A stretch of 64,000 nt of DNA from an uncultured Sphingomonadaceae bacterium. Lineage in GTDB: Bacteria > Pseudomonadota > Alphaproteobacteria > Sphingomonadales > Sphingomonadaceae. A program made the translations under genes and the position numbers. Of this stretch, positions 11,759 through 42,361 are shown one piece after another (the first letter of the stretch is position 1; each line of letters begins with the position of its first letter). The stretch spans positions 1 to 64,000 of the forward strand of contig CALLJS010000003.1 in the NCBI GenBank assembly GCA_938050045.1. The letters are read 5' to 3'. A model generated the notes under the pieces. It saw only the letters and a program-made list of their open reading frames with translations. It was not told the DNA's origin and ran no database searches.

Positions 11759-12885
11759 CAGTATCGTACGAAACAGTGAAGGTTGCATTGGATGGCAATA
11801 GCTATGATATTTTAATTGGCGATGGCTTGATCGCGCAATGTGCCGCTATCATTAAAGATAAATCGCGCAACGGGAAATTCTTGCTGATTACCGATGAAAA
11901 TGTTGCCCAGCATGTCTTACCAAAGCTCAAAAATCATTTGGAAACGCACAATATAGCGTTAGAAATATTTACATTACCCGCTGGCGAAAAAGCAAAAAGC
12001 TGGGCCAATTTAGAACAAATTTGCGAGTGGTTGATAGAAAAAGGCGCAGAGCGTCAAGATCATATTATTGCTTTGGGCGGCGGGGTCGTGGGCGATATAA
12101 CAGGTTTTGCGGCCCACATTATCAAGCGCGGTTGTAATTTCATCCAAATACCCACCACTTTGTTGGCGCAAGTTGATAGCAGCGTCGGCGGCAAAACAGC
12201 GATTAACAGCAAAGCTGGCAAAAATTTAATCGGTGCCTTTCATCAACCTTCGCTCATATTGATTGATCCGATGCTATTGGACAGCCTGCCCCCGCGAGAG
12301 ATAGCCGCAGGATTTGCCGAAATTGTAAAATATGGTCTTATCCAGGATGCAGCTTTTTTTAATTGGTGCTGCATGGCAGTCGAAAAATTCTTCGCTGGCG
12401 ATTCTGCCACGCGCATCCATGCTATCACAACATCCATATCCACAAAAGCGGCCATAGTCGCTGCCGATGAACAAGAACGAAACGGTGCGAGAGCCTTGCT
12501 CAACTTGGGTCACACATTTGGCCATGCATTGGAGGCCGAAGCTGGTTTTGGTGATATATTATTGCACGGGGAAGGCGTTGCATTGGGCATGATATTGGCT
12601 TTCCGTTATTCTGAATCGTGCGGGTTATGCCCTGCTCATCAAGCCGATAAAATAGCGTCATTGCTGGCGAAAGCAAAATTACCGACACGCCTATCGGATT
12701 GCCCAATAGCTTGCGATGGGGCTAGTTTGATTGGCCATATGATGCACGATAAAAAAATGAACGCAGGAAAATTACCATTTTTATTAGCGCGCAATATTGG
12801 TCAGGCTTTTTTGGCCCATGATGTCGATATTGATAGCGTTAAAAAATTCTTAGATACGCGCATCGCCGAAGAGAAAAGCCTCTAA
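11755..12885 (+). CDS. aroB: 3-dehydroquinate synthase
   Basis: 376 aa, full length. NAD-binding GGGVVGD and GFAAHI-KRG, PTTLLAQVDSSVGGKTAIN, the metal ligands in the GLIQDAAFF/GHTFGHALEAEAGFG/HGEGVA segments. It converts DAHP to 3-dehydroquinate, the second step of the shikimate pathway. Start codon overlaps the aroK stop. The 3' end overlaps the last four bases of the convergent antiporter gene, with no room for a terminator between them. Confidence 0.97.
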   Translation: MTVSYETVKVALDGNSYDILIGDGLIAQCAAIIKDKSRNGKFLLITDENVAQHVLPKLKNHLETHNIALEIFTLPAGEKAKSWANLEQICEWLIEKGAERQDHIIALGGGVVGDITGFAAHIIKRGCNFIQIPTTLLAQVDSSVGGKTAINSKAGKNLIGAFHQPSLILIDPMLLDSLPPREIAAGFAEIVKYGLIQDAAFFNWCCMAVEKFFAGDSATRIHAITTSISTKAAIVAADEQERNGARALLNLGHTFGHALEAEAGFGDILLHGEGVALGMILAFRYSESCGLCPAHQADKIASLLAKAKLPTRLSDCPIACDGASLIGHMMHDKKMNAGKLPFLLARNIGQAFLAHDVDIDSVKKFLDTRIAEEKSL

Positions 12886-26046: not shown

Positions 26047-26511
26047 ATGTTTGGGCCACATCCAAGCGGCAGGCCATTAACGCAGCAAGAGCGCGCATTA
26101 ACACGCTCTATATTCAATGATGCCATTGATTATGACTCCGTGCGTATCCACAATCGCAAATGGTGGTGGTTTCAGCCGCGCAAGATAACTATGGCACCCG
26201 ATGGGCATCTGTGGTTTCATCCAAAGAATAATCTATTTTGTGATGATTTTTGTGAACGCGATATTAATTTGCAAGCCCTATTCATGCACGAAATGACGCA
26301 TGTCTGGCAACATCAATCTGGTATATTCCTGCCGCTGCGCCGCCATCCATTCTGCCGCTATGACTATAGCATAAAACCAGGCTGGAAATTAGAACATTAT
26401 GGTCTGGAACAGCAGGCTGAAATTGTGAAACATATATTTTTACTGCGCAGCGGTTATACATTTGCGGGTGCTCCGCCGATCGCCCATTATGATGGACTAT
26501 TACCGTTTTAA
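26047..26511 (+). CDS. Small HExxH-motif ('vgr-related') protein
   Basis: 154 aa without signal peptide. Contains HEMTHVWQHQ at residues 81-90, a zinc-metallopeptidase-like HExxH, preceded by DINLQALF and followed by EHYGLEQQAEIVKHIF, where a Glu could be the third ligand. Similar alphaproteobacterial proteins are annotated 'vgr-related', but no type VI secretion genes are here. Probably a small metallopeptidase-like protein of unknown substrate. Second gene after the PCuAC lipoprotein. Its stop overlaps the convergent MATE gene by 4 bp. Confidence 0.65.
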   Translation: MFGPHPSGRPLTQQERALTRSIFNDAIDYDSVRIHNRKWWWFQPRKITMAPDGHLWFHPKNNLFCDDFCERDINLQALFMHEMTHVWQHQSGIFLPLRRHPFCRYDYSIKPGWKLEHYGLEQQAEIVKHIFLLRSGYTFAGAPPIAHYDGLLPF

Positions 26512-27905
26512 TCTGGAATAAGACCTATTTTATCGCGCAGCATCCAGCGGGCCGTCATCAATATCGCGACTACGCCCAATCCACTGGCTAGGCCTATCCA
26601 AATGCCCAAACCTGCATAGCCATATTCAAACGCCAATAGACCCCCTACCCCAATGCCGACCACCCAATAGCCAAATAATGCAATCGCCATGGGAATGAAT
26701 GTATCATGCATTCCGCGCAGCATGCCAGCCGCCACCACTTGAATCCCATCGACAATTTGAAATAAAGCCGCAATCCCCAAAAACCCAACGGCCAGTGCCG
26801 CGACTTCGCCATTCTCTGGCAGGCTTGCATCAATGAATAGAGCGATAAGAGCATCGGGAAAAAATAGCATAATCAACGCCATGACGCTCATGAAGCTTGT
26901 TCCTAAGATCATAGCCGTCCAGCCTGCTCTTGCGATTGCATCGGGGTCGCGCTGGCCATAGGCTATGCCTACACGGACCGTCGCCGCCTGCCCTAGCCCC
27001 ATCGGCACCATGAAGCTCAAGGATGCAAGTTGCAGCGCAATCGCATGCGCTGCCAAAGATTCCGCGCCGAGCCATCCCATCAATATACCCGCAGCTCCAA
27101 ACACGCCGCCTTCTAACCCCATGGTGATGGCAATGGGCAAGCCCAATTTCCAAAGGGCAAAATAGCGCGGCCAATCGGCTCGCCAAAAACGGCCAAATAT
27201 TTTATAGCGTCTGAAATCTTTGTGCAAAATCACCACCAAAGATAATCCGCCAAACATGAGCATATTGGTCATAACGCTGCCGATACCTGCTCCGATGATA
27301 CCTAATTCTGGTGCGCCAAAATTTCCAAATATCAGCGCATAATTAAACAGAGCATTGGAAAAAACAGCTATGATACTAATGATTAAAGCCCAAATTGGTT
27401 TTTCCAAAGCCGATATGAAATTGCGCAGCACTATGAAGAATAAAAAAGGCAGCATCGACCAGATATAAGCCTTTAGATATAAACCAGCATTGGCAGCGAG
27501 ATCATCTTCCTGCCCAAAGAATAACAAAATAACCTCTGTATTCCACAGCAATATCCATATCGGTATAATAACCGAAACAGCCGCCCACAGGCTTTGCCGA
27601 AACGTGCGGCGTATATCGCGCACACTATGTTTCATACGGCCAATTTCAGAGGCCATCATCGGCGCACAAGCCGTCATCAAACCCATACAAAATATCGCGC
27701 AGGTCATCGCTAGATTAAAACCCAATGTAGCCGCGGCTAATTCACGCGCACCCAGCCATCCGAGCATCAAAACATCGGTTGCTCCAATAAGTGCTAAGGT
27801 CATATTCGAGATGATAAGCGGCCATGACAAAGAGGCCGTTGCGAACAATTCGTGCCGCCAAACGCGATTTTGCATATATGCAGCTTTAATATGCACCTCT
27901 GTCAT
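26508..27905 (-). CDS. MATE-family multidrug/Na+ efflux transporter
   Basis: 465 aa with about 12 membrane helices in two homologous halves. Typical MATE segments are SWPLIISNMTLALIGATDVLMLGWLG at the first helix, and PMGLGQAATVRVG in the second half. MATE pumps export cationic drugs or metabolites in exchange for Na+ or H+. Substrate cannot be told. The first ATG (27905) or the ATG at 27875 could be used. Confidence 0.92.
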   Translation of the reverse strand: MTEVHIKAAYMQNRVWRHELFATASLSWPLIISNMTLALIGATDVLMLGWLGARELAAATLGFNLAMTCAIFCMGLMTACAPMMASEIGRMKHSVRDIRRTFRQSLWAAVSVIIPIWILLWNTEVILLFFGQEDDLAANAGLYLKAYIWSMLPFLFFIVLRNFISALEKPIWALIISIIAVFSNALFNYALIFGNFGAPELGIIGAGIGSVMTNMLMFGGLSLVVILHKDFRRYKIFGRFWRADWPRYFALWKLGLPIAITMGLEGGVFGAAGILMGWLGAESLAAHAIALQLASLSFMVPMGLGQAATVRVGIAYGQRDPDAIARAGWTAMILGTSFMSVMALIMLFFPDALIALFIDASLPENGEVAALAVGFLGIAALFQIVDGIQVVAAGMLRGMHDTFIPMAIALFGYWVVGIGVGGLLAFEYGYAGLGIWIGLASGLGVVAILMTARWMLRDKIGLIPD

Positions 27906-28001: not shown

Positions 28002-28220
28002 ATGATAAGTGCATTGGGATTGATTGGCGGCCTAGCATTGCTGATTTATATGACGATTAAAGGCGTGAATATATTAATCGCGGGGCCCATGGCGGCTATC
28101 ATAGTAGCTCTCACGAGCGGTATTAGCCTCATACCGCCGCTCGCCGTTGAGGGCGCACCCGATTTTGCAATACCCACAAAATATAAAATACATAGCTTAA
28201 ATGATATAAATAAAATCTAA
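28002..28220 (+). pseudogene. GntP-family permease, N-terminal fragment
   Basis: An ATG at 28002 with AAGAGGTGACT upstream opens a frame whose first ~59 codons (MISALGLIGGLALLIYMTI..., GVNILIAGPMAAIIVALTSG) are the N-terminal helices of a GntP-type gluconate/organic acid permease. From about 28178 homology ends and the frame continues into AT-rich sequence, stopping at 28220. The C-terminal half resumes at about 28676. About 105 residues of the permease, including the next helices, are missing, so the transporter should be inactive. Confidence 0.8.
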
Positions 28221-28229
28221 ACTATGTAT
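28188..28229 (-). terminator. AT-rich hairpin, candidate terminator of the bacteriocin-like gene
   Basis: ATACATAGCTTA (28188-28199) and TAAACTATGTAT (28218-28229) form a 12-bp inverted repeat with one mismatch. Read on the minus strand it lies just past the stop of the peptide gene and is followed by TTTATATTTT, as an intrinsic terminator would be. Confidence 0.45.
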
Positions 28230-28264
28230 CTACTAAATAATAGGCTTATTAAATAAGTTAATAA

Positions 28265-28546
28265 TTAATACCAGATAGGAGCAAAATCTCCTGTTCTCTT
28301 AGCCTCAGCAGCCATCTTGCTATTAGTATCTATAGCAGCATTCCGAGTACCATTAAGTAATAAGGCCCCAGCTGTAGCGACAATAGAAGCGGCACCCGCA
28401 CTTCGAACTAAAGCACCAGCAATAGCACCAATTACCGTACCTTCAATAGCACTTATAGTTTTTTCTGCTTTCTTTTTTTCTTTTGACTTTTTTGTTTCAT
28501 GGCCGCCGTTAACCATTTCTAACTCTATACTACTTAAATCACGCAT
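28265..28546 (-). CDS. Bacteriocin-like peptide with double-glycine leader
   Basis: 93 aa. The N-terminus MRDLSSIELEMVNGG is a textbook double-glycine leader (LS-x-x-EL-x-x-VNGG), normally cut by a C39-peptidase ABC exporter. The predicted 78-aa mature part starts with a Lys/Glu-rich stretch and then a Gly/Ala-rich hydrophobic segment with GxxxGxxxG (GTVIGAIAGA), typical of pore-forming two-peptide bacteriocins, ending in GDFAPIWY. Start at 28546 is chosen because GGAG lies 6 nt before it; the upstream in-frame ATG (28558) has no ribosome binding site. It is antisense to and inside the broken permease gene, AT-rich, with its own promoter. No exporter, partner peptide or immunity gene is visible. 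Confidence 0.72.
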   Translation of the reverse strand: MRDLSSIELEMVNGGHETKKSKEKKKAEKTISAIEGTVIGAIAGALVRSAGAASIVATAGALLLNGTRNAAIDTNSKMAAEAKRTGDFAPIWY

Positions 28547-28573
28547 TATATTCTCCATACTAGAAATTTTATT

Positions 28574-28592
28574 AGCAAATTAATAATTTGCT
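28574..28592. promoter_or_regulatory. Perfect palindrome at the predicted transcription start of the peptide gene
   Basis: AGCAAATTA-A-TAATTTGCT: nine-bp arms around a single base, positioned just downstream of the predicted -10 box. Could be an operator or a 5' mRNA hairpin. Confidence 0.4.
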
Positions 28593-28596
28593 TTTC

Positions 28597-28626
28597 TTTA
28601 TTCAAACAACAACTAATAATTGTCAA
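28597..28626 (-). promoter_or_regulatory. Sigma-70-type promoter of the peptide gene
   Basis: Minus-strand TTGACA (28626-28621, perfect -35), an 18-bp spacer and AATAAA (28602-28597, four of six matches to TATAAT). Predicted leader to the ATG at 28546 is roughly 45 nt. Confidence 0.5.
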
Positions 28627-28675
28627 GTATCATATTTAGATTAATCAATAATACCTATTACATTACCAGTGTTCG

Positions 28676-29587
28676 ATATTTGCTGCTCTAGCCTTTGGAT
28701 CCGTCACCTTCACTATGACAAGCGCAGGATCACCCGAAATTCAAAATCTTATTCCGATGGAGCATTTGGGAACAACGGCATTTGCGGCATGGAAAATAAG
28801 CTTTGTGGTGGCCATAGCAATGGCGATAATCGGCTGTTATTGGATCAATTGGATGGTCAAACGCGCAGTATCACGCGGCGAGACATTTATCGCACGCGGC
28901 AGCGATGCCGCCCCCGCAGATTATTCAAAACTGCCCTCGCCATTGCTCTGTTTAATTCCATTAGCGGCCGTCTTGGGCTTATTCCTCTTGTTTCAATATC
29001 CGCAGAGCTTTGGCGCATTATCCAAAATATTACCCGCCGCAACATGGGACAAATGGGCCTTAGTTTTAGCACTCGGCACAGGCTCTCTACTTGCTATTTG
29101 GGTCGGCCGAGCAAAACTGCCTGAAATGCCCGAAGCCTTCTCTCGCGGAGCAAGCAGCGCGGTTATCGCTATCACCAATACCTGCGCTGTGGTTGGTTTT
29201 GGCGCAGTGGCCAAATTAACCCCTGCCTTTGGCCAAGCATTAGAGGCCGTGCAAAGCTTGCCAGGTGATCCGCTCATCGGTGCGGCCATCGCGGTGACGG
29301 TTATCGCGGGTTTAACGGGCAGCGCATCGGGGGGACAGACCATCGCCTTGCCTCTTATCGCGCCGCATTATTTGGATGCAGGTGCTAATGCAGAAGAATT
29401 GCACCGCACAGTGGCGATTGCATCGGGTGCGCTCGATAGCTTGCCGCATAATGGCTATGTGGTGACGACTATCAGAGCCGTATGCGGCGAAACGCACAAA
29501 GATGCTTATGGCGCAGTGGGCGCACTGACGGTTATATTGCCATTGGGCGGATTGGTTCTTGCATTGGCATTATTTGCGATCTTTTGA
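28676..29587 (+). pseudogene. GntP-family permease, C-terminal fragment
   Basis: Homology to GntP permeases resumes at about 28676 (IFAALAFGSVTFTMTSAGSPEIQN) and continues to the end of the family, with ITNTCAVVGFG, LTGSASGGQTIALPLIAPHYLD and ASGALDSLPHNGYVVTTIRA. Translation could restart at the ATG at 28715, giving 290 aa and about eight helices, but the N-terminal helices and the segment before 28676 are lost. It is intact after the break, so the replacement is probably recent. Confidence 0.8.
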
Positions 29588-29632: not shown

Positions 29633-30118
29633 ATGAACGCACAGATAAAGATACATCATACATATTCTCAATCAGACGAGGATATAGGCCATATCTTTCG
29701 TGGAGAATATATTAATATATGCTCACAGGTAGAGGAATGGGCGATTAACGTTCTTCAAAACCCCAAAGTTACCACTTTACCAGAGAGTAAGCCCAAATTA
29801 CCTCATTTGTTCGGTAAAAAGCTCTCAGCAATTGAAAGTTTGATAGATAAGCGGCCTGAACTTTTCAAAAATGATAAATGCACAATAGAACTTATATCCG
29901 AGTTTAAATGCTATGCTGAATTACGATCAGATTTGGCACATGCAGTTATGAAGGTTTATTCTAAAAATAATGAAACTATATTTGTATTCACTAACTTTGG
30001 TCAAACAATAACACCCAAAATGCCAAAACGTTTCAGTATATCAATCAGCGAATGCCAGAAATTACTTAAATCTCTAAGACATCATGTTAAAAAAATAACC
30101 GATCAAAAGCTCAAATAG
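29633..30118 (+). CDS. AT-rich orphan protein with HEPN-like R-x4-H motif
   Basis: 161 aa, soluble, probably all-helical. It contains RSDLAH at residues 98-103, an R-x4-H arrangement like the catalytic motif of HEPN ribonucleases, preceded by helices with QVEEWAINVL and LFGKKLSAIESL. No other motif recognised. Codons are AT-rich compared with the neighbouring core genes, and no clear ribosome binding site precedes the ATG. It lies between the broken permease and grpE, in the same accessory stretch as the bacteriocin-like gene. No antitoxin-like partner (MNT) is adjacent. Function unknown. Confidence 0.65.
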   Translation: MNAQIKIHHTYSQSDEDIGHIFRGEYINICSQVEEWAINVLQNPKVTTLPESKPKLPHLFGKKLSAIESLIDKRPELFKNDKCTIELISEFKCYAELRSDLAHAVMKVYSKNNETIFVFTNFGQTITPKMPKRFSISISECQKLLKSLRHHVKKITDQKLK

Positions 30119-30121
30119 CAA

Positions 30122-30736
30122 TCAATCTGGTTTTTTGGCAACGCCTACAAAGGCTGGACGCAGCAAGCGGTCTTTAATCATATAACCCGATTGCATTTCT
30201 TGCACCACTGTCCCCGGCTCTTCATCGGCAGAGGGTATCTCGACCATCGCTTGATGTTGGTTCGGATCAAGCGGAAGCCCCATAGCGGCGATGCGCTTGA
30301 TGCCATGTTTACCAAAGACAGACTCTAGTTCGCGGCCCGTGGCTTCTATACCCGTGATAAGGCCTTTCCATTTTTCTTCATCTTTAATTTCATCGGGAAT
30401 GGCCTCTAGCGCGCGGCTTAGATTATCAGACACCGATAATATATCGCGCGCAAATCCTGTGGCCGCATAGGCCCGCGCATCTTGCGCATCTTTTTCGAGA
30501 CGGCGGCGTACATTTTGCGTTTCCGCTTGGGCATAGAGTATTTCTTGTTTCGCCGTTGCCAATTGATCGGTCAGCTTAGCAATCTCATCATCGCCATTAT
30601 CATCTGACATTAGATGATCGGGCACTCCTTCCAATTCAGCTTCTGCGGCATTATCCATCGGAGCTTTTTGTGCAGCTTGCGTTTGGATTTCTTCTGGAGC
30701 TTCATTCTCAAGATTATCTTTATCATCATGCATCAT
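30122..30736 (-). CDS. grpE: Nucleotide exchange factor GrpE
   Basis: 204 aa. Acidic, disordered N-terminus, long coiled coil (LATAKQEILYAQAETQNVRRRLEKD), and the C-terminal beta domain with GIKRIAAMGLPLDPNQHQAM and QSGYMIKDRLLRPAFVGVAK. It releases ADP from DnaK. It is downstream of hrcA by 47 bp on the same strand; dnaK-dnaJ lie about 5 kb away rather than adjacent. Confidence 0.96.
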   Translation of the reverse strand: MMHDDKDNLENEAPEEIQTQAAQKAPMDNAAEAELEGVPDHLMSDDNGDDEIAKLTDQLATAKQEILYAQAETQNVRRRLEKDAQDARAYAATGFARDILSVSDNLSRALEAIPDEIKDEEKWKGLITGIEATGRELESVFGKHGIKRIAAMGLPLDPNQHQAMVEIPSADEEPGTVVQEMQSGYMIKDRLLRPAFVGVAKKPD

Positions 30737-34568: not shown

Positions 34569-35459
34569 ATGAGCGCATTACTAAAAGAATATCGCAGCTT
34601 TTTGGCTGATAATCGGCGCAAATCCGACCATACGGTGCGTGCGTATAGCACAGCAGCGCAGCGTTTTACCGATTTCCTAACCAACCATAATGGCAAGCTG
34701 TGCGATACAGAGATGCTTGGCACGATCAAATCTGCTGACATTCGTTCTTATCTAGCGATGCGGCGCAGCGAAGGGCTGACCAACCGCTCGACAGCGCGCG
34801 AATTATCTGCGATCAAAGCTTTTTTGCGCTTTGCATTAGGCGAAGATGCAGCCTTACCGATCATGCGCGCGCCCAAAATTGCGCAGAGCGTTCCGCGCCC
34901 TCTCAGCCCCGAAGATGCGGTTAATTTGGCCGATGATATTGCCCAAAGCGCGACCAAGGATTGGACAGGCGCGCGCGATTGGGCGGTGCTGCTCATGCTG
35001 TATGGCTGTGGACTACGGATTAGCGAAGCTACTGGATTAAAGGGCGATATATTACCGCTAGGCGAGAGCATCCGCGTGACCGGAAAGCGCGATAAGACTC
35101 GGATCATTCCCATCATCGACCCTGTCAAAAATGCGATAGAAAATTATATAGAATTATGCCCTTACGCCGTTGATCGCAATGCCCCTTTGTTTCGCGGGAC
35201 GCGGGGCGGCGCGCTCTCGCCCGCGCTCATCCGCCGCGCTGTGCAAGGGGCGAGAAAGCGTCTTGGGCTGCCCGATAATGCCACGCCGCATGCTCTGCGT
35301 CATAGCTTCGCCTCGCATTTGCTGGCGGGCGGTGCGGACTTGCGATCTTTGCAGGAATTGCTGGGCCATGCGAGCTTAAGCAGCACGCAAGTTTACACGG
35401 CGGTCGACACAGCGATGCTGCTCGATGAATATGAAAATGCGCATCCGCGCTCGGGTTGA
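34569..35459 (+). CDS. xerC: Site-specific tyrosine recombinase XerC
   Basis: 296 aa. SAM-like N-terminal domain, then catalytic Arg150 (GCGLRISEA), Lys173 (GKRDKTRIIP), His241 and Arg244 (PHALRHSFASHLL), His267 (LGHASLS) and Tyr276. Together with XerD (8149-9060) it resolves chromosome dimers. Assigned as XerC because the other copy has the XerD neighbourhood and because of the FLTNHNG/LSAIKAFLRF type N-terminus; the C/D labels are inference. It follows hemW by 54 bp. Confidence 0.9.
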   Translation: MSALLKEYRSFLADNRRKSDHTVRAYSTAAQRFTDFLTNHNGKLCDTEMLGTIKSADIRSYLAMRRSEGLTNRSTARELSAIKAFLRFALGEDAALPIMRAPKIAQSVPRPLSPEDAVNLADDIAQSATKDWTGARDWAVLLMLYGCGLRISEATGLKGDILPLGESIRVTGKRDKTRIIPIIDPVKNAIENYIELCPYAVDRNAPLFRGTRGGALSPALIRRAVQGARKRLGLPDNATPHALRHSFASHLLAGGADLRSLQELLGHASLSSTQVYTAVDTAMLLDEYENAHPRSG

Positions 35460-35823
35460 TTTGCTTTTCATGCATCGCTGATTTCGTCATCCTCAGCGCG
35501 CATCCACTATTCTAAACGCTCGCCCGTCATCCTAAATGCACGCCCGTCATGCTGAATTTATTTCAGGATACCCCATCCGCGCATATTATCATGCTAAAAC
35601 AAGTTCAGCATGATAAAAATTTAGGGGCTGATCTATAAGATTGATTATTGTTGGATTGGTTTGAGCCATATTTTGAGAGTTTTCAAGAGTTGATCTGGCG
35701 GTCCATAATTGAAACGCCATTCGCATTCCCGAAAAACGGGAATCCAGTCATTAAAAAGACTCATTATTCTCACTCGTCATTCCCGCGAAAGCGGGAATTC
35801 AGCACCGATAAAATTAAACGAAT
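35460..35823. repeat. Gene-free gap filled with palindromic intergenic repeats
   Basis: No coding region is seen. It holds (a) CGCCCGTCATCCTAAATGCA next to a related CGCCCGTCATGCTGAAT; (b) GTCATGCTGAATTTATTTCAG (from 35548) and, inverted, TAAAACAAGTTCAGCATGAT, which can pair; (c) two REP-like palindromes, CATTCCCGAAAAACGGGAATC (35724-35744) and GTCATTCCCGCGAAAGCGGGA (35776-35796). Such elements are common between convergent genes in Proteobacteria; here xerC and gshB converge and the hairpins may serve as terminators. Confidence 0.8.
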
Positions 35824-36774
35824 TTACCCCAATCTAGCAAGGCAAGCATCCCAAATCATGCCCGCGCTATCGCTGCCATTATAGACGTCAATGGCCACAA
35901 TACCCGTGGGCGATGTCACATTAATCTCGGTCAGCCATTGCCCGCCAATCACATCAATCCCAACAAATGTTAAGCCCTTGGCTTTGAGATCAGGGCCCAT
36001 CGCCGCGCAAATTTCTTTTTCGCGCGCGGTTAGCTCTGATTTTTCGGCATAACCGCCCTGCGCTAGGTTCGAACGAAACTCGCCTTGGCCTGGCTTGCGG
36101 TTAATTGCGCCCGCGACCACGCCATCGATTAGCACAATCCGTTTATCACCCTCGGATACTTCGGGCAAGAACGCCTGCACCATATGCGGCTCGCGCCATG
36201 TGCCGTTAAACACCTCTAATAAGGCGCTTAAATTGCTGCCATCTTCGGGAATAAGGAATATCGCTTTACCGCCATTGCCATGCAGCGGTTTTACAACAAT
36301 CTTGCCATATTTGGCCTGAAAGCTGCGCACTTCATCCAAATCGCGGGTGATGATTGTCGGTGGCATAAATTGCGCATAATCGAGAACATAGACTTTTTCG
36401 GGCGCATTGCGCACCGATACGGGGTCATTGACCACCAATGTTTCGCCTTTAAGCCGTTCGAGTAAATGCGTCGCGGTGATATAACCTACATCGAAGGGCG
36501 GGTCTTGGCGCATCATTACCACATCAATATCGCGGCCCAAATCAAGGCGGACGTCATCGCCAAAACGAAAATGATTGCCCTTAACGCGCTGTAAATCATG
36601 CACGCTGCGGGCTTTGGCAATGATACGGCCATCAACCAAAGAGAGCGTCTCTACATCATAATGATAAATCTCATAGCCGCGCTCTTGCGCCGATAGCATG
36701 AGCGCAAAACTACTGTCCCCCGCTATCCCAATATCTGCCATAGGGTCCATTTGCATTGCGATTTTGAGGGTCAT
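35824..36774 (-). CDS. gshB: Glutathione synthase
   Basis: 316 aa, standard GshB length. N-terminal KIAMQMDPMADIGIAGDSSFALML, ATP-grasp motifs VVKPLHGNGGKAIF and LTEINVTSPTGI, and the GGYAEKSELT segment. It joins glycine to gamma-glutamylcysteine using ATP. It follows yraN and rsmI on the minus strand, a conserved alphaproteobacterial order. Confidence 0.97.
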   Translation of the reverse strand: MTLKIAMQMDPMADIGIAGDSSFALMLSAQERGYEIYHYDVETLSLVDGRIIAKARSVHDLQRVKGNHFRFGDDVRLDLGRDIDVVMMRQDPPFDVGYITATHLLERLKGETLVVNDPVSVRNAPEKVYVLDYAQFMPPTIITRDLDEVRSFQAKYGKIVVKPLHGNGGKAIFLIPEDGSNLSALLEVFNGTWREPHMVQAFLPEVSEGDKRIVLIDGVVAGAINRKPGQGEFRSNLAQGGYAEKSELTAREKEICAAMGPDLKAKGLTFVGIDVIGGQWLTEINVTSPTGIVAIDVYNGSDSAGMIWDACLARLG

Positions 36775-39932: not shown

Positions 39933-40019
39933 AATCGCCAAATAGGGATTATTTAGCTGGCGGTCAACGCTACAAAGCGTCAAATATTTAATCGAGGAAA
40001 TCGAACAAATCGATTTTTT

Positions 40020-40481
40020 TCATGCTCTCAAATCTTTTGAAGACCCCAGGTTTATATAAGATGTAATGCTTTTTACCTGTGGTAAAGTACCCAAAGTATC
40101 AGAATGGAATGATTTATACGCTATTAAATCAGCTACCTCTACCCGCAAGAAATATTCAATCGCCCCCGTTACATCATGACATTCAATGACTTCTGGGGCA
40201 GCATCCATCGCCATTTCAAACGCCTGCGCATCTTTTTTGCTATGCCCAGACAGACCCACCATGACAAATATAACAGCACCAACCCCCAGCTTGCTGCGGT
40301 CAATAACAGCGCGATAGCCCGTAATTATCTTTTTGCGCTCTAATTCTTGCACACGCCGCAAGCAGGCCGATGGAGATAATCCAACCAAATTAGCCAATTC
40401 CACATTAGGGATTCGCGCATTATCTTCTAATGCACGCAATATTCCACGATCTATAGCATCAATTTCCATCATATATTGCAT
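40020..40481 (-). CDS. Lrp/AsnC-family transcriptional regulator
   Basis: 153 aa. N-terminal helix-turn-helix (IDAIDRGILRALEDNARIPNVELANLVGLSPSACLRRVQELE) and C-terminal RAM domain with LGVGAVIFVMVGL and EVIECHDVTGAIEYFLRVEVADL. Such regulators respond to amino acids. It is divergent from the indoleamine 2,3-dioxygenase gene across 95 bp and is its likely regulator. Several ATG codons near the start (40481, 40472, 40469) make the exact N-terminus uncertain. Confidence 0.93.
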   Translation of the reverse strand: MQYMMEIDAIDRGILRALEDNARIPNVELANLVGLSPSACLRRVQELERKKIITGYRAVIDRSKLGVGAVIFVMVGLSGHSKKDAQAFEMAMDAAPEVIECHDVTGAIEYFLRVEVADLIAYKSFHSDTLGTLPQVKSITSYINLGSSKDLRA

Positions 40482-40576
40482 AAATAGCTTATATTAAGAT
40501 GATATTGCAAGATATTTCCTTGGAAAATGATATAGTGAGCTATTGATAAATTATTACATAAGCAAGAGGGTTGAGA

Positions 40577-41755
40577 ATGACTATATTAGCATTAGAAAAT
40601 TATGACATGTCATCAGAAAGAGGCTTTTTATGTCATTATGATGCAAGCCAGATCAATTTTAATGATAAAATGCGCGAAGTTAGGGACATTGCATTAAATT
40701 TACCAAAAATAATAACTACAGGAAAAATTCGTGATTATTTGAATGATAATTTGCCCATACTCGACGTCAGCAGCGATTTTGATGGATTATCAGATGCCGA
40801 ATTGCGTATGGCAATGATCCATTATTCTTTCATGGTGCAATCTTATATTTGGGGCGAACCTAATCCACCCAATATTTTACCGGCTTGTTTGGCGCAGCCA
40901 ATCGTGGCTCTTTCTGATAAATTAGATCAACCACCGCTGATGACATATAGTGGCTATGTACTTGATAATTGGGCAAAGATAGATAAAAATAAACCAATTA
41001 ATCTTGATAATATCTATATGATACAAAATTTTTTAGCCGGCCAAGACGAGGCATGGTTCGTGCTTGTCCATGTAGCGATTGAGGCGCATGCAGGGGAAGT
41101 TTTAGCCTCTATGGGCCCAATCATCGAAGCAAGCCAGAATGATGACAGCGAAACGGTTCAAAATTTATTAGAAGCTAATGCGCTTCGATGGGCTGGTATC
41201 AATGCTATTTTTGATCGTATGCCAGAGAAATGTGACCCCTATATTTATTTTGAGCGCGTGCGTCCTTATATTCATGGCTGGAAAGATAACCCTGCTTTAC
41301 CCGATGGAATAATATATGAAGGGGTCGAACGCTATGGCAATAAAGCGCAAGCATTTCGCGGACAAACCGGATCACAATCCTCTATTGTTCCTTCGATGGA
41401 TGCTCTGTTATGCGTTGGCCATGCGGCCGATCCGCTTAGGGAATATTTGGATCAATTACATATGTACCGTTCGCCCAAACACCGCAAATTCATCGAAGAT
41501 ATCCGAGCAAAGAGCAAGTTACGGTCTTATGTAGAAAACGCGAATAATGTTGGGCTGACAGAGGCTTATAATTCAAATATTCAGGCCGTTGCTGATTTTA
41601 GGACGCGCCATCTCGAATATGCGGCAAGCTATATTAACAAACAGCAAAAACAAGCAGATGGGAATGATACGGATATTGGAACGGGCGGAACACCGTTTAT
41701 GCGCTATCTGAAAAAACATCGTGATGAGACATCTGCAAATCTAATAAAGGTTTGA
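40577..41755 (+). CDS. Indoleamine 2,3-dioxygenase
   Basis: 392 aa, heme dioxygenase of the IDO family. Recognised by RPYIHGW (residues 229-235), TGSQSSIVPSMDALLCVGHA (264-283), FRTRHLEYAASYI with proximal heme ligand His345, and GTGGTPFMRYLKKHRDET near the C-terminus. It opens the indole ring of tryptophan to N-formylkynurenine, first step of the kynurenine route. No kynurenine formamidase or other pathway gene follows (recR is convergent). The ATG at 40577 has AGAGGG upstream; an in-frame TTG at 40571 is less likely. Confidence 0.92.
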   Translation: MTILALENYDMSSERGFLCHYDASQINFNDKMREVRDIALNLPKIITTGKIRDYLNDNLPILDVSSDFDGLSDAELRMAMIHYSFMVQSYIWGEPNPPNILPACLAQPIVALSDKLDQPPLMTYSGYVLDNWAKIDKNKPINLDNIYMIQNFLAGQDEAWFVLVHVAIEAHAGEVLASMGPIIEASQNDDSETVQNLLEANALRWAGINAIFDRMPEKCDPYIYFERVRPYIHGWKDNPALPDGIIYEGVERYGNKAQAFRGQTGSQSSIVPSMDALLCVGHAADPLREYLDQLHMYRSPKHRKFIEDIRAKSKLRSYVENANNVGLTEAYNSNIQAVADFRTRHLEYAASYINKQQKQADGNDTDIGTGGTPFMRYLKKHRDETSANLIKV

Positions 41756-41767
41756 ACTTAAAATATT

Positions 41768-42361
41768 TTATACAGGACGACGGGCTCGCAAGGCTTGCGC
41801 TAATGTGCCCTCGTCCAAATAATCCAATTCTCCGCCTATGGGCAGTCCATGCGCCAATTGCGTTAATCGCACAGGGCTTTCTTCTAATCGTTCGGCGATA
41901 TAATGCGATGTCGCCTGCCCCTCTAGCGTCGCATTCATAGCAAGCACCACTTCATCAACCTCGCCGCTGCGCACCCGGTTTATCAGCTTATCAATATGTA
42001 AATCTTCGGGACGCACGCCATCGAGCGCCGATAATTTGCCGCCCAACACATGATATTTGCCCGCAAAAAGCCGTGATCTATCTAAGGCCCAAAGGTCAGA
42101 AACTTCCTCAACAACGCACAATGAACGCGCATCGCGCTTGCTATCGTTACAGATATGGCAGGGCGATATAGTGTCGATATTTGCGCATATAGAACAGGTC
42201 TTTAGATTCTCATTCACTGCGCCGAGTGCCGCCAACAAAGGTTGCAAAGCAGATTCGCGCTTTTTCATCAAATGTAGCACAACGCGCCGCGCCGAGCGCG
42301 GGCCAAGCCCAGGAAGACGAGATAATGATTGCGCCAATGCGTCTATTTCTTGCGAAGCCAT
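41768..42361 (-). CDS. recR: Recombination protein RecR
   Basis: 197 aa, full length. Helix-hairpin-helix ([20 protein letters not shown]), four-cysteine zinc finger ([16 protein letters not shown]), Toprim domain ([13 protein letters not shown]) and C-terminal Walker-like region ([27 protein letters not shown]). Acts with RecO/RecF in gap repair. Divergent from fmt; convergent with the dioxygenase gene 12 bp away. Confidence 0.97.

Follow-up and report, generated by a model that had tools for sequence, protein, structure and literature searches.

Double illegitimate recombination (DIR) is a known process. Homology-facilitated illegitimate recombination (HFIR) is reported to pair insertions with deletions of similar size, each averaging 1 kb, in competent bacteria; it has been reported from Acinetobacter baylyi, Streptococcus pneumoniae and Pseudomonas stutzeri, its joints in competent species mostly show 3–10 bp of microhomology, and three of four HFIR clones from E. 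coli conjugation were without it (PMC3240628). Short replaced segments, often intragenic, have been presented as a major class of microdiversity, with illegitimate recombination put forward as their origin (PMC2884548), and the same group later reported HFIR as an unlikely source of such segments in E. coli (PMC3240628). For class II microcins, precursors are described as having a core of 60–90 aa behind a leader of 15–18 aa that ends in GG or GA, and leaders of the double-glycine type are described as processed by a Peptidase_C39 domain (PMC10233263).

Here we analysed a broken permease gene carrying a candidate gene of this type within a 64-kb stretch of DNA (the window), which is part of an 81-kb contig (G000:C3) of a 28-contig draft genome of 2.42 Mb (completeness 99.28%, estimated contamination 1.37%). 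Three sister species of the same genus (G060, G011 and G022) have the permease at the matching locus, in each case as a single 451-aa frame with no interruption, and in all three it lies between a MatE gene and a gene that is presumably grpE, the latter at 30122–30736 (−) in the window. By blastn against each of the three sisters, the match ended at 28168 and restarted at 28682 every time, with edge-touching blocks 81.6–87.0% identical; other gap costs shift the right edge to 28691. A preliminary description of this DNA had proposed a GntP-type permease broken around ~0.5 kb of AT-rich DNA, with halves homologous up to sharp edges, and our comparison agrees while correcting the edges to these positions (Table 1). 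It had also weighed the arrangement against one in which relatives carry two intact genes, and none of the three sisters is organised in that way.

Table 1 Coordinates of the features at and around the broken permease, in positions of the window
Feature	Position	Strand	Basis
MatE gene, left neighbour of permease	26508–27905	−	
5' remnant of GntP-like permease (codons 1–55 and two bases of codon 56)	28002–28168	+	Homology to G060, G011 and G022
Foreign-looking AT-rich segment, 513 bp	28169–28681	.	blastn edges, viewed base by base
Hairpin 3' of peptide gene, possible terminator	28188–28229	−	Inverted repeat and folding
Antisense ORF of 97 aa, probably starting at codon 5 (28546)	28265–28558	−	ORF list; sub-threshold Pfam and NCBIfam matches
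GGAG, ribosome-binding-like, 6 nt before ATG of codon 5	28553–28556	−	Read from sequence
3' remnant of permease (codons 151–451 and stop), open, without frameshift	28682–29587	+	Homology to sister species

The 513 bp in the window stand for 283 bp in the sisters (L047:8018–8300), so a simple insertion is ruled out by the loss of permease DNA and the earlier view of a replacement holds. Permease residues 57–150 are gone, that is 94 residues by comparison with the sisters rather than the about 105 first estimated. The GC content of the segment is 31%, versus 45% for the whole window. As to whether the missing part lies nearby, another point weighed earlier, tblastn of the 94 lost residues in the 64-kb window returned chance matches only (best E 0.40; the same query gave E 2e-60 in G060 as a positive control), the best blastn match to the lost segment in the window was 15 bases long, and a whole-genome search with the C-terminal half of the permease matched at the locus of the break alone. 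Residues 57–150 show zero amino-acid differences among the three sisters, and because of this invariance their loss would very likely destroy permease function.

The sister permease appears to be a distant GntP-like protein, since GntP (PF02447) is the best Pfam match of both intact sister proteins scanned, albeit with scores of 21.4 bits (G011) and 17.0 bits (G022) that fall under the cut-off of 22.5 bits; the same proteins are also far under NCBIfam cut-offs, and the copy in the window is broken. Searching PDB with the G011 permease gave 15 matches, every one of them to ribosomal protein eS19 and judged to be chance. Within the genus the permease is patchy: three of 25 genomes matched the search with its C-terminal half (the window's own genome, G011 and G022, in a set without G060), and it is missing from all nine further genus regions compared with the window by blastn, among which one (L052) stops at a contig end before grpE and another (L058) barely aligns, so that these two carry little weight.

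The flanks of the segment look native, since the remnants and the neighbouring genes have similar dS: between window and G060 it was 0.66 for the 3' remnant and 0.48 for the 5' remnant (with 42 synonymous sites only), and 0.55–1.04 for nine neighbouring genes. Over 300 compared codons the 3' remnant is without a stop or frameshift, and its dN/dS was 0.053 to G060, 0.043 to G022 and 0.085 to G011, while pairs of intact sisters range from 0.046 to 0.070. Where the three sisters agree, window-only codon changes number 21 synonymous and 0 non-synonymous, compared with 20 and 2 for G060-only changes. With G022 as outgroup, the window branch carries 12 non-synonymous changes and the G060 branch 11 (7.5 and 10 after removal of the region around the divergent G011 patch described below), where neutrality over the whole branch would predict some 190–220 (about 222). 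As the 3' remnant keeps this mark of purifying selection, the break looks recent, occupying a small part of the window branch, in line with the recent event first suggested. With G011 as outgroup the counts were 18 on the window branch versus 5 on the G060 branch (13 versus 5 minus the patch), and this excess, together with the window–G011 dN/dS of 0.085, above that of intact pairs, would allow a somewhat older break. An old pseudogene is disfavoured by the selection pattern, the counts with G011 as outgroup being the caveat.

The permease of G011 (L048) has a divergent patch at window-equivalent positions 28862–28981, with 24 and 27 differences per 60 bases from the window where G060 has 6 and 3. 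This is a sign of homologous exchange within the permease gene, making it a mosaic in this clade, and it lends some weight to the idea that the broken allele was born in an unsampled relative and imported with its flanks by ordinary homologous recombination. Against this, window–G060 identity runs at 0.81–0.92 per 150-base bin across 1.7 kb on the left and at 0.84–0.89 across 1 kb on the right with no visible tract boundary, and the neighbouring genes are similar in dS; we regard this origin as quite unlikely.

No target duplication was seen in a repeat search or in base-by-base views of the edges, as the preliminary description had noted, and the segment holds no transposase or integrase frame. 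There is also no clear terminal repeat: the best pair near the ends is a 13-nt inverted repeat of 77% identity, with one arm set back 10 bp from the left end and the other reaching exactly to the right end, and it is one among 25 inverted pairs listed for the AT-rich region. The combination of target duplication and terminal inverted repeats that marks transposons, insertion sequences and MITEs is thus not seen, and what is found at the locus is an insertion coupled to a resident deletion free of mobile-element hallmarks, the pattern of illegitimate replacement. The statement that no mechanism could be named for such an event needs revising, as insertion with deletion of the HFIR type has been described (PMC3240628, PMC2884548); the kind of event is already known and the mechanism is not new. 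With an intact permease in three sisters, no transposase or integrase frame and no target duplication, we favour, at a probability of about 0.58, a single illegitimate replacement of the HFIR/DIR type by a foreign fragment, with a microcin-like gene as stranded cargo. A short piece of foreign DNA, taken up by or transferred into a Sphingorhabdus-like cell, would have replaced the middle of the permease by illegitimate recombination, of either the double illegitimate kind or the homology-facilitated kind with its homologous portion no longer recognisable. The loss of 283 bp and gain of 513 bp would most simply have happened in one step, destroying the permease, and the fragment would happen to have brought a small microcin-like gene unit.

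Segment and G060 permease gene share no exact match of at least 10 bases, which weighs against the HFIR/DIR reading, as does the lack of a donor in the searches described below. On the right side no donor-derived anchor is seen, the first 60 of 900 bases having 3 of the 34 window-only differences; on the left, where 5 of 7 such differences fall in the last 57 of 167 bases, the numbers are too small for a judgement. It also counts against the HFIR/DIR reading that the segment holds one whole gene unit, which under this reading is a coincidence. ComEC and DprA are present in the genome; they are no proof of competence, because most control genomes match too (10 and 11 of 14, respectively). Ku-type end joining was rejected, since the genome is without Ku (among the control genomes only 1 of 14 matches). 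The same end result would come from two steps, in which the microcin-like unit was inserted and the adjoining 283 bp were deleted, or the reverse, and the edges do not separate one step from two. Two steps would, however, need two events within the short time allowed by the selection pattern, and one end of the deletion would have to coincide exactly with the edge of the segment, which leaves this course of events unlikely.

Within the segment, codon 5 is the likelier start of the antisense ORF because of the GGAG motif that stands before it, and this start gives a 15-aa leader, MRDLSSIELEMVNGG, with the length and ending of class II leaders, followed by a 78-aa core. GC3 is 24%. Family searches with the peptide gave Pfam matches to Bacteriocin_IIc (E 0.0013) and MccV (E 0.011) and NCBIfam matches to a CTB bacteriocin (E 0.002) and E492 microcin (E 0.17), each of which begins inside the leader and falls below cut-off; a further alignment to the MccV model, beginning at model position 1 (E 0.009), is also below its cut-off. 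Unrelated models (aldolase, prePAAR, OmpA-like) scored similarly on the peptide, and a loose leader pattern also matched four further short ORFs of the window. As all family matches are below cut-off and the leader pattern is unspecific, the assignment of the peptide as a class II microcin-like precursor is weak, a judgement rather than proof. PADLOC gave no match, PHROGs gave weak matches alone (best E 0.005), and an Rfam search gave one match, judged to be chance.

Downstream of the peptide gene, 28169–28264 (−) folds at −25.6 kcal/mol (z −5.6, equalled by 0 of 200 shuffles), while the opposite strand, given as 28160–28264, reaches −10.6 (z −1.7). This strand bias of the hairpin fits an RNA feature of the peptide gene; a scan for consensus terminators did not report it. 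Upstream of the gene there is a lone TTGACA, and sigma-70-like sites number 0 versus 2.8 expected in shuffles. The first account of a self-contained piece therefore stands for the antisense double-glycine-leader gene, the GGAG motif and the hairpin, and is not supported for the promoter.

Peptidase_C39 (PF03412) had 0 matches in the window's own genome, which is 99.28% complete, while 8 of 14 control genomes matched. In the genus, C39 is present in 17 of 45 genomes, G060 included, with 22 matches overall. The segment shows no evident immunity gene, as judged by anatomy only, since immunity genes are without conserved features; the only other ORF of at least 40 aa wholly inside the segment is an overlapping shadow frame at 28317–28583 (+). 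With no C39 exporter found in the genome and no immunity gene in the segment, the cell would probably neither process nor export the peptide, leaving the unit as stranded cargo; the simplest reading is of a microcin-like gene that has been parted from the rest of its system. Nine regions picked from the 22 C39 matches in 17 genomes were scanned, and in five of them (G060, G052, G015, G019 and G050) a plausible double-glycine peptide lies beside C39; no similarity in the core was seen by eye. One such region in G060 (L163, G060:C1 7785–12853) holds a C39 exporter, a membrane-fusion-like protein, a gene for a 111-aa double-glycine peptide and an integrase-like frame at 12167–12853, the membrane-fusion and integrase names being given by eye, and is likely a microcin island.

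Searches for a donor or for further copies gave no convincing relative. With the peptide as query, 8 of 45 genus genomes matched at E up to 0.1 (the window's own and seven others), and 5 of 385 genomes of the class at E up to 0.01 (own and four others). The seven genus matches (E 0.036–0.082, 30–35% identity over parts of the peptide) and the four class matches (E 1.3e-4 to 0.0075, 27–44% identity, inside frames of 347–601 aa) were judged to be chance. Using the segment DNA at E up to 1, matches were found in 22 of 45 genus genomes; besides the segment itself these are AT-rich stretches of ~16–41 nt (E values between 0.001 and 0.98, with five such stretches in the own genome), likewise judged to be chance, so that no second copy of the segment is seen in its own genome or in the 44 other genus genomes. 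Plasmids and phages gave no match, and pattern scans, which reach close relatives only, gave 597 matches in genome_contigs and 138 in IMG/VR viral contigs, none confirmed. We infer that the segment is foreign in origin from its low GC and GC3 and this lack of a convincing relative.

The lack of a relative would also suit an assembly chimera, in which DNA of another organism was joined into the permease gene of a 28-contig draft with some estimated contamination. A chimera would have to account for two independent clean joins inside an 81-kb contig and for a segment that is unrepeated in the assembly, and we hold it to be very improbable. The segment could instead be one of a family, so far undescribed, of small mobile cassettes with a single gene that take the place of part of their target, an idea that draws on its make-up as a tidy unit of leader gene, ribosome-binding motif and strand-specific hairpin. 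The single copy, the short AT-rich stretches that are the only other matches in the genus, the lack of a copy in plasmids, phages or IMG/VR, and a sole inverted pair near both ends that is short, imperfect and one of many make such a family very unlikely. By the same measure, the suggestion that small cargo is swapped as a repeated process is unsupported, because the segment was absent from any other site searched. It is extremely doubtful that an undescribed cassette family spreads microcin-like genes among Sphingomonadales through replacement of parts of resident genes, with hosts of C39 islands exporting the products in trans.

The window and G060 compare in 15 blocks from window position 1724 to 63047, and the within-gene replacements recognised are the permease break and the neighbouring gene at 29633–30118 only, with gene boundaries checked for part of the gaps. 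This neighbour (+, 161 aa) has a segment of 34% GC; in G060 and G011 its place is taken by a gene of similar length, and G022 is without DNA at this position. Its product is 24% identical over 107 aa to the G060 protein at the same spot, with conserved flanks and initial codons (MNAQ), which we read as another segment exchange, distinct from the first and 1 kb away from it. Further along, the 1.8 kb at 39971–41769 correspond to 75 bp in G060 and contain two genes, one at 40020–40481 (−) that we take to encode an AsnC/Lrp-type regulator and one at 40571–41755 (+) whose 394-aa product is, by its look, presumably an indoleamine 2,3-dioxygenase-type protein. At 35450–35825, short stretches match G060 at several nearby places, possibly as an intergenic repeat family.

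The above analyses point to a clean and recent natural case in which a foreign-looking gene unit has replaced part of a resident gene with no visible mobile element, the broken permease having been caught before decay. The orphan microcin-like gene is itself mildly interesting, as a double-glycine peptide for which no exporter was found illustrates that a leader motif by itself does not establish a functioning microcin system. Compared with class II microcins of the MccV type, the peptide shares a GG-ending leader and a core within the described size ranges, and it differs in having no C39 exporter in the genome, no adjacent immunity gene and no score above cut-off. The break shares with HFIR and double illegitimate recombination the foreign gain and resident loss at one site, on a scale of hundreds of bp to ~1 kb, and, like these processes in natural transformation, it shows no mobile element; it differs from the described HFIR cases in that no donor was found. 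With the 'dimorphic' microdiversity loci, as these are described in PMC2884548, it shares a short replaced intragenic segment in a conserved backbone. Unlike them, the present replacement is seen between species at 82–87% identity, its 513 bp go only slightly beyond the 20–500 bp class, and it carries a whole gene.
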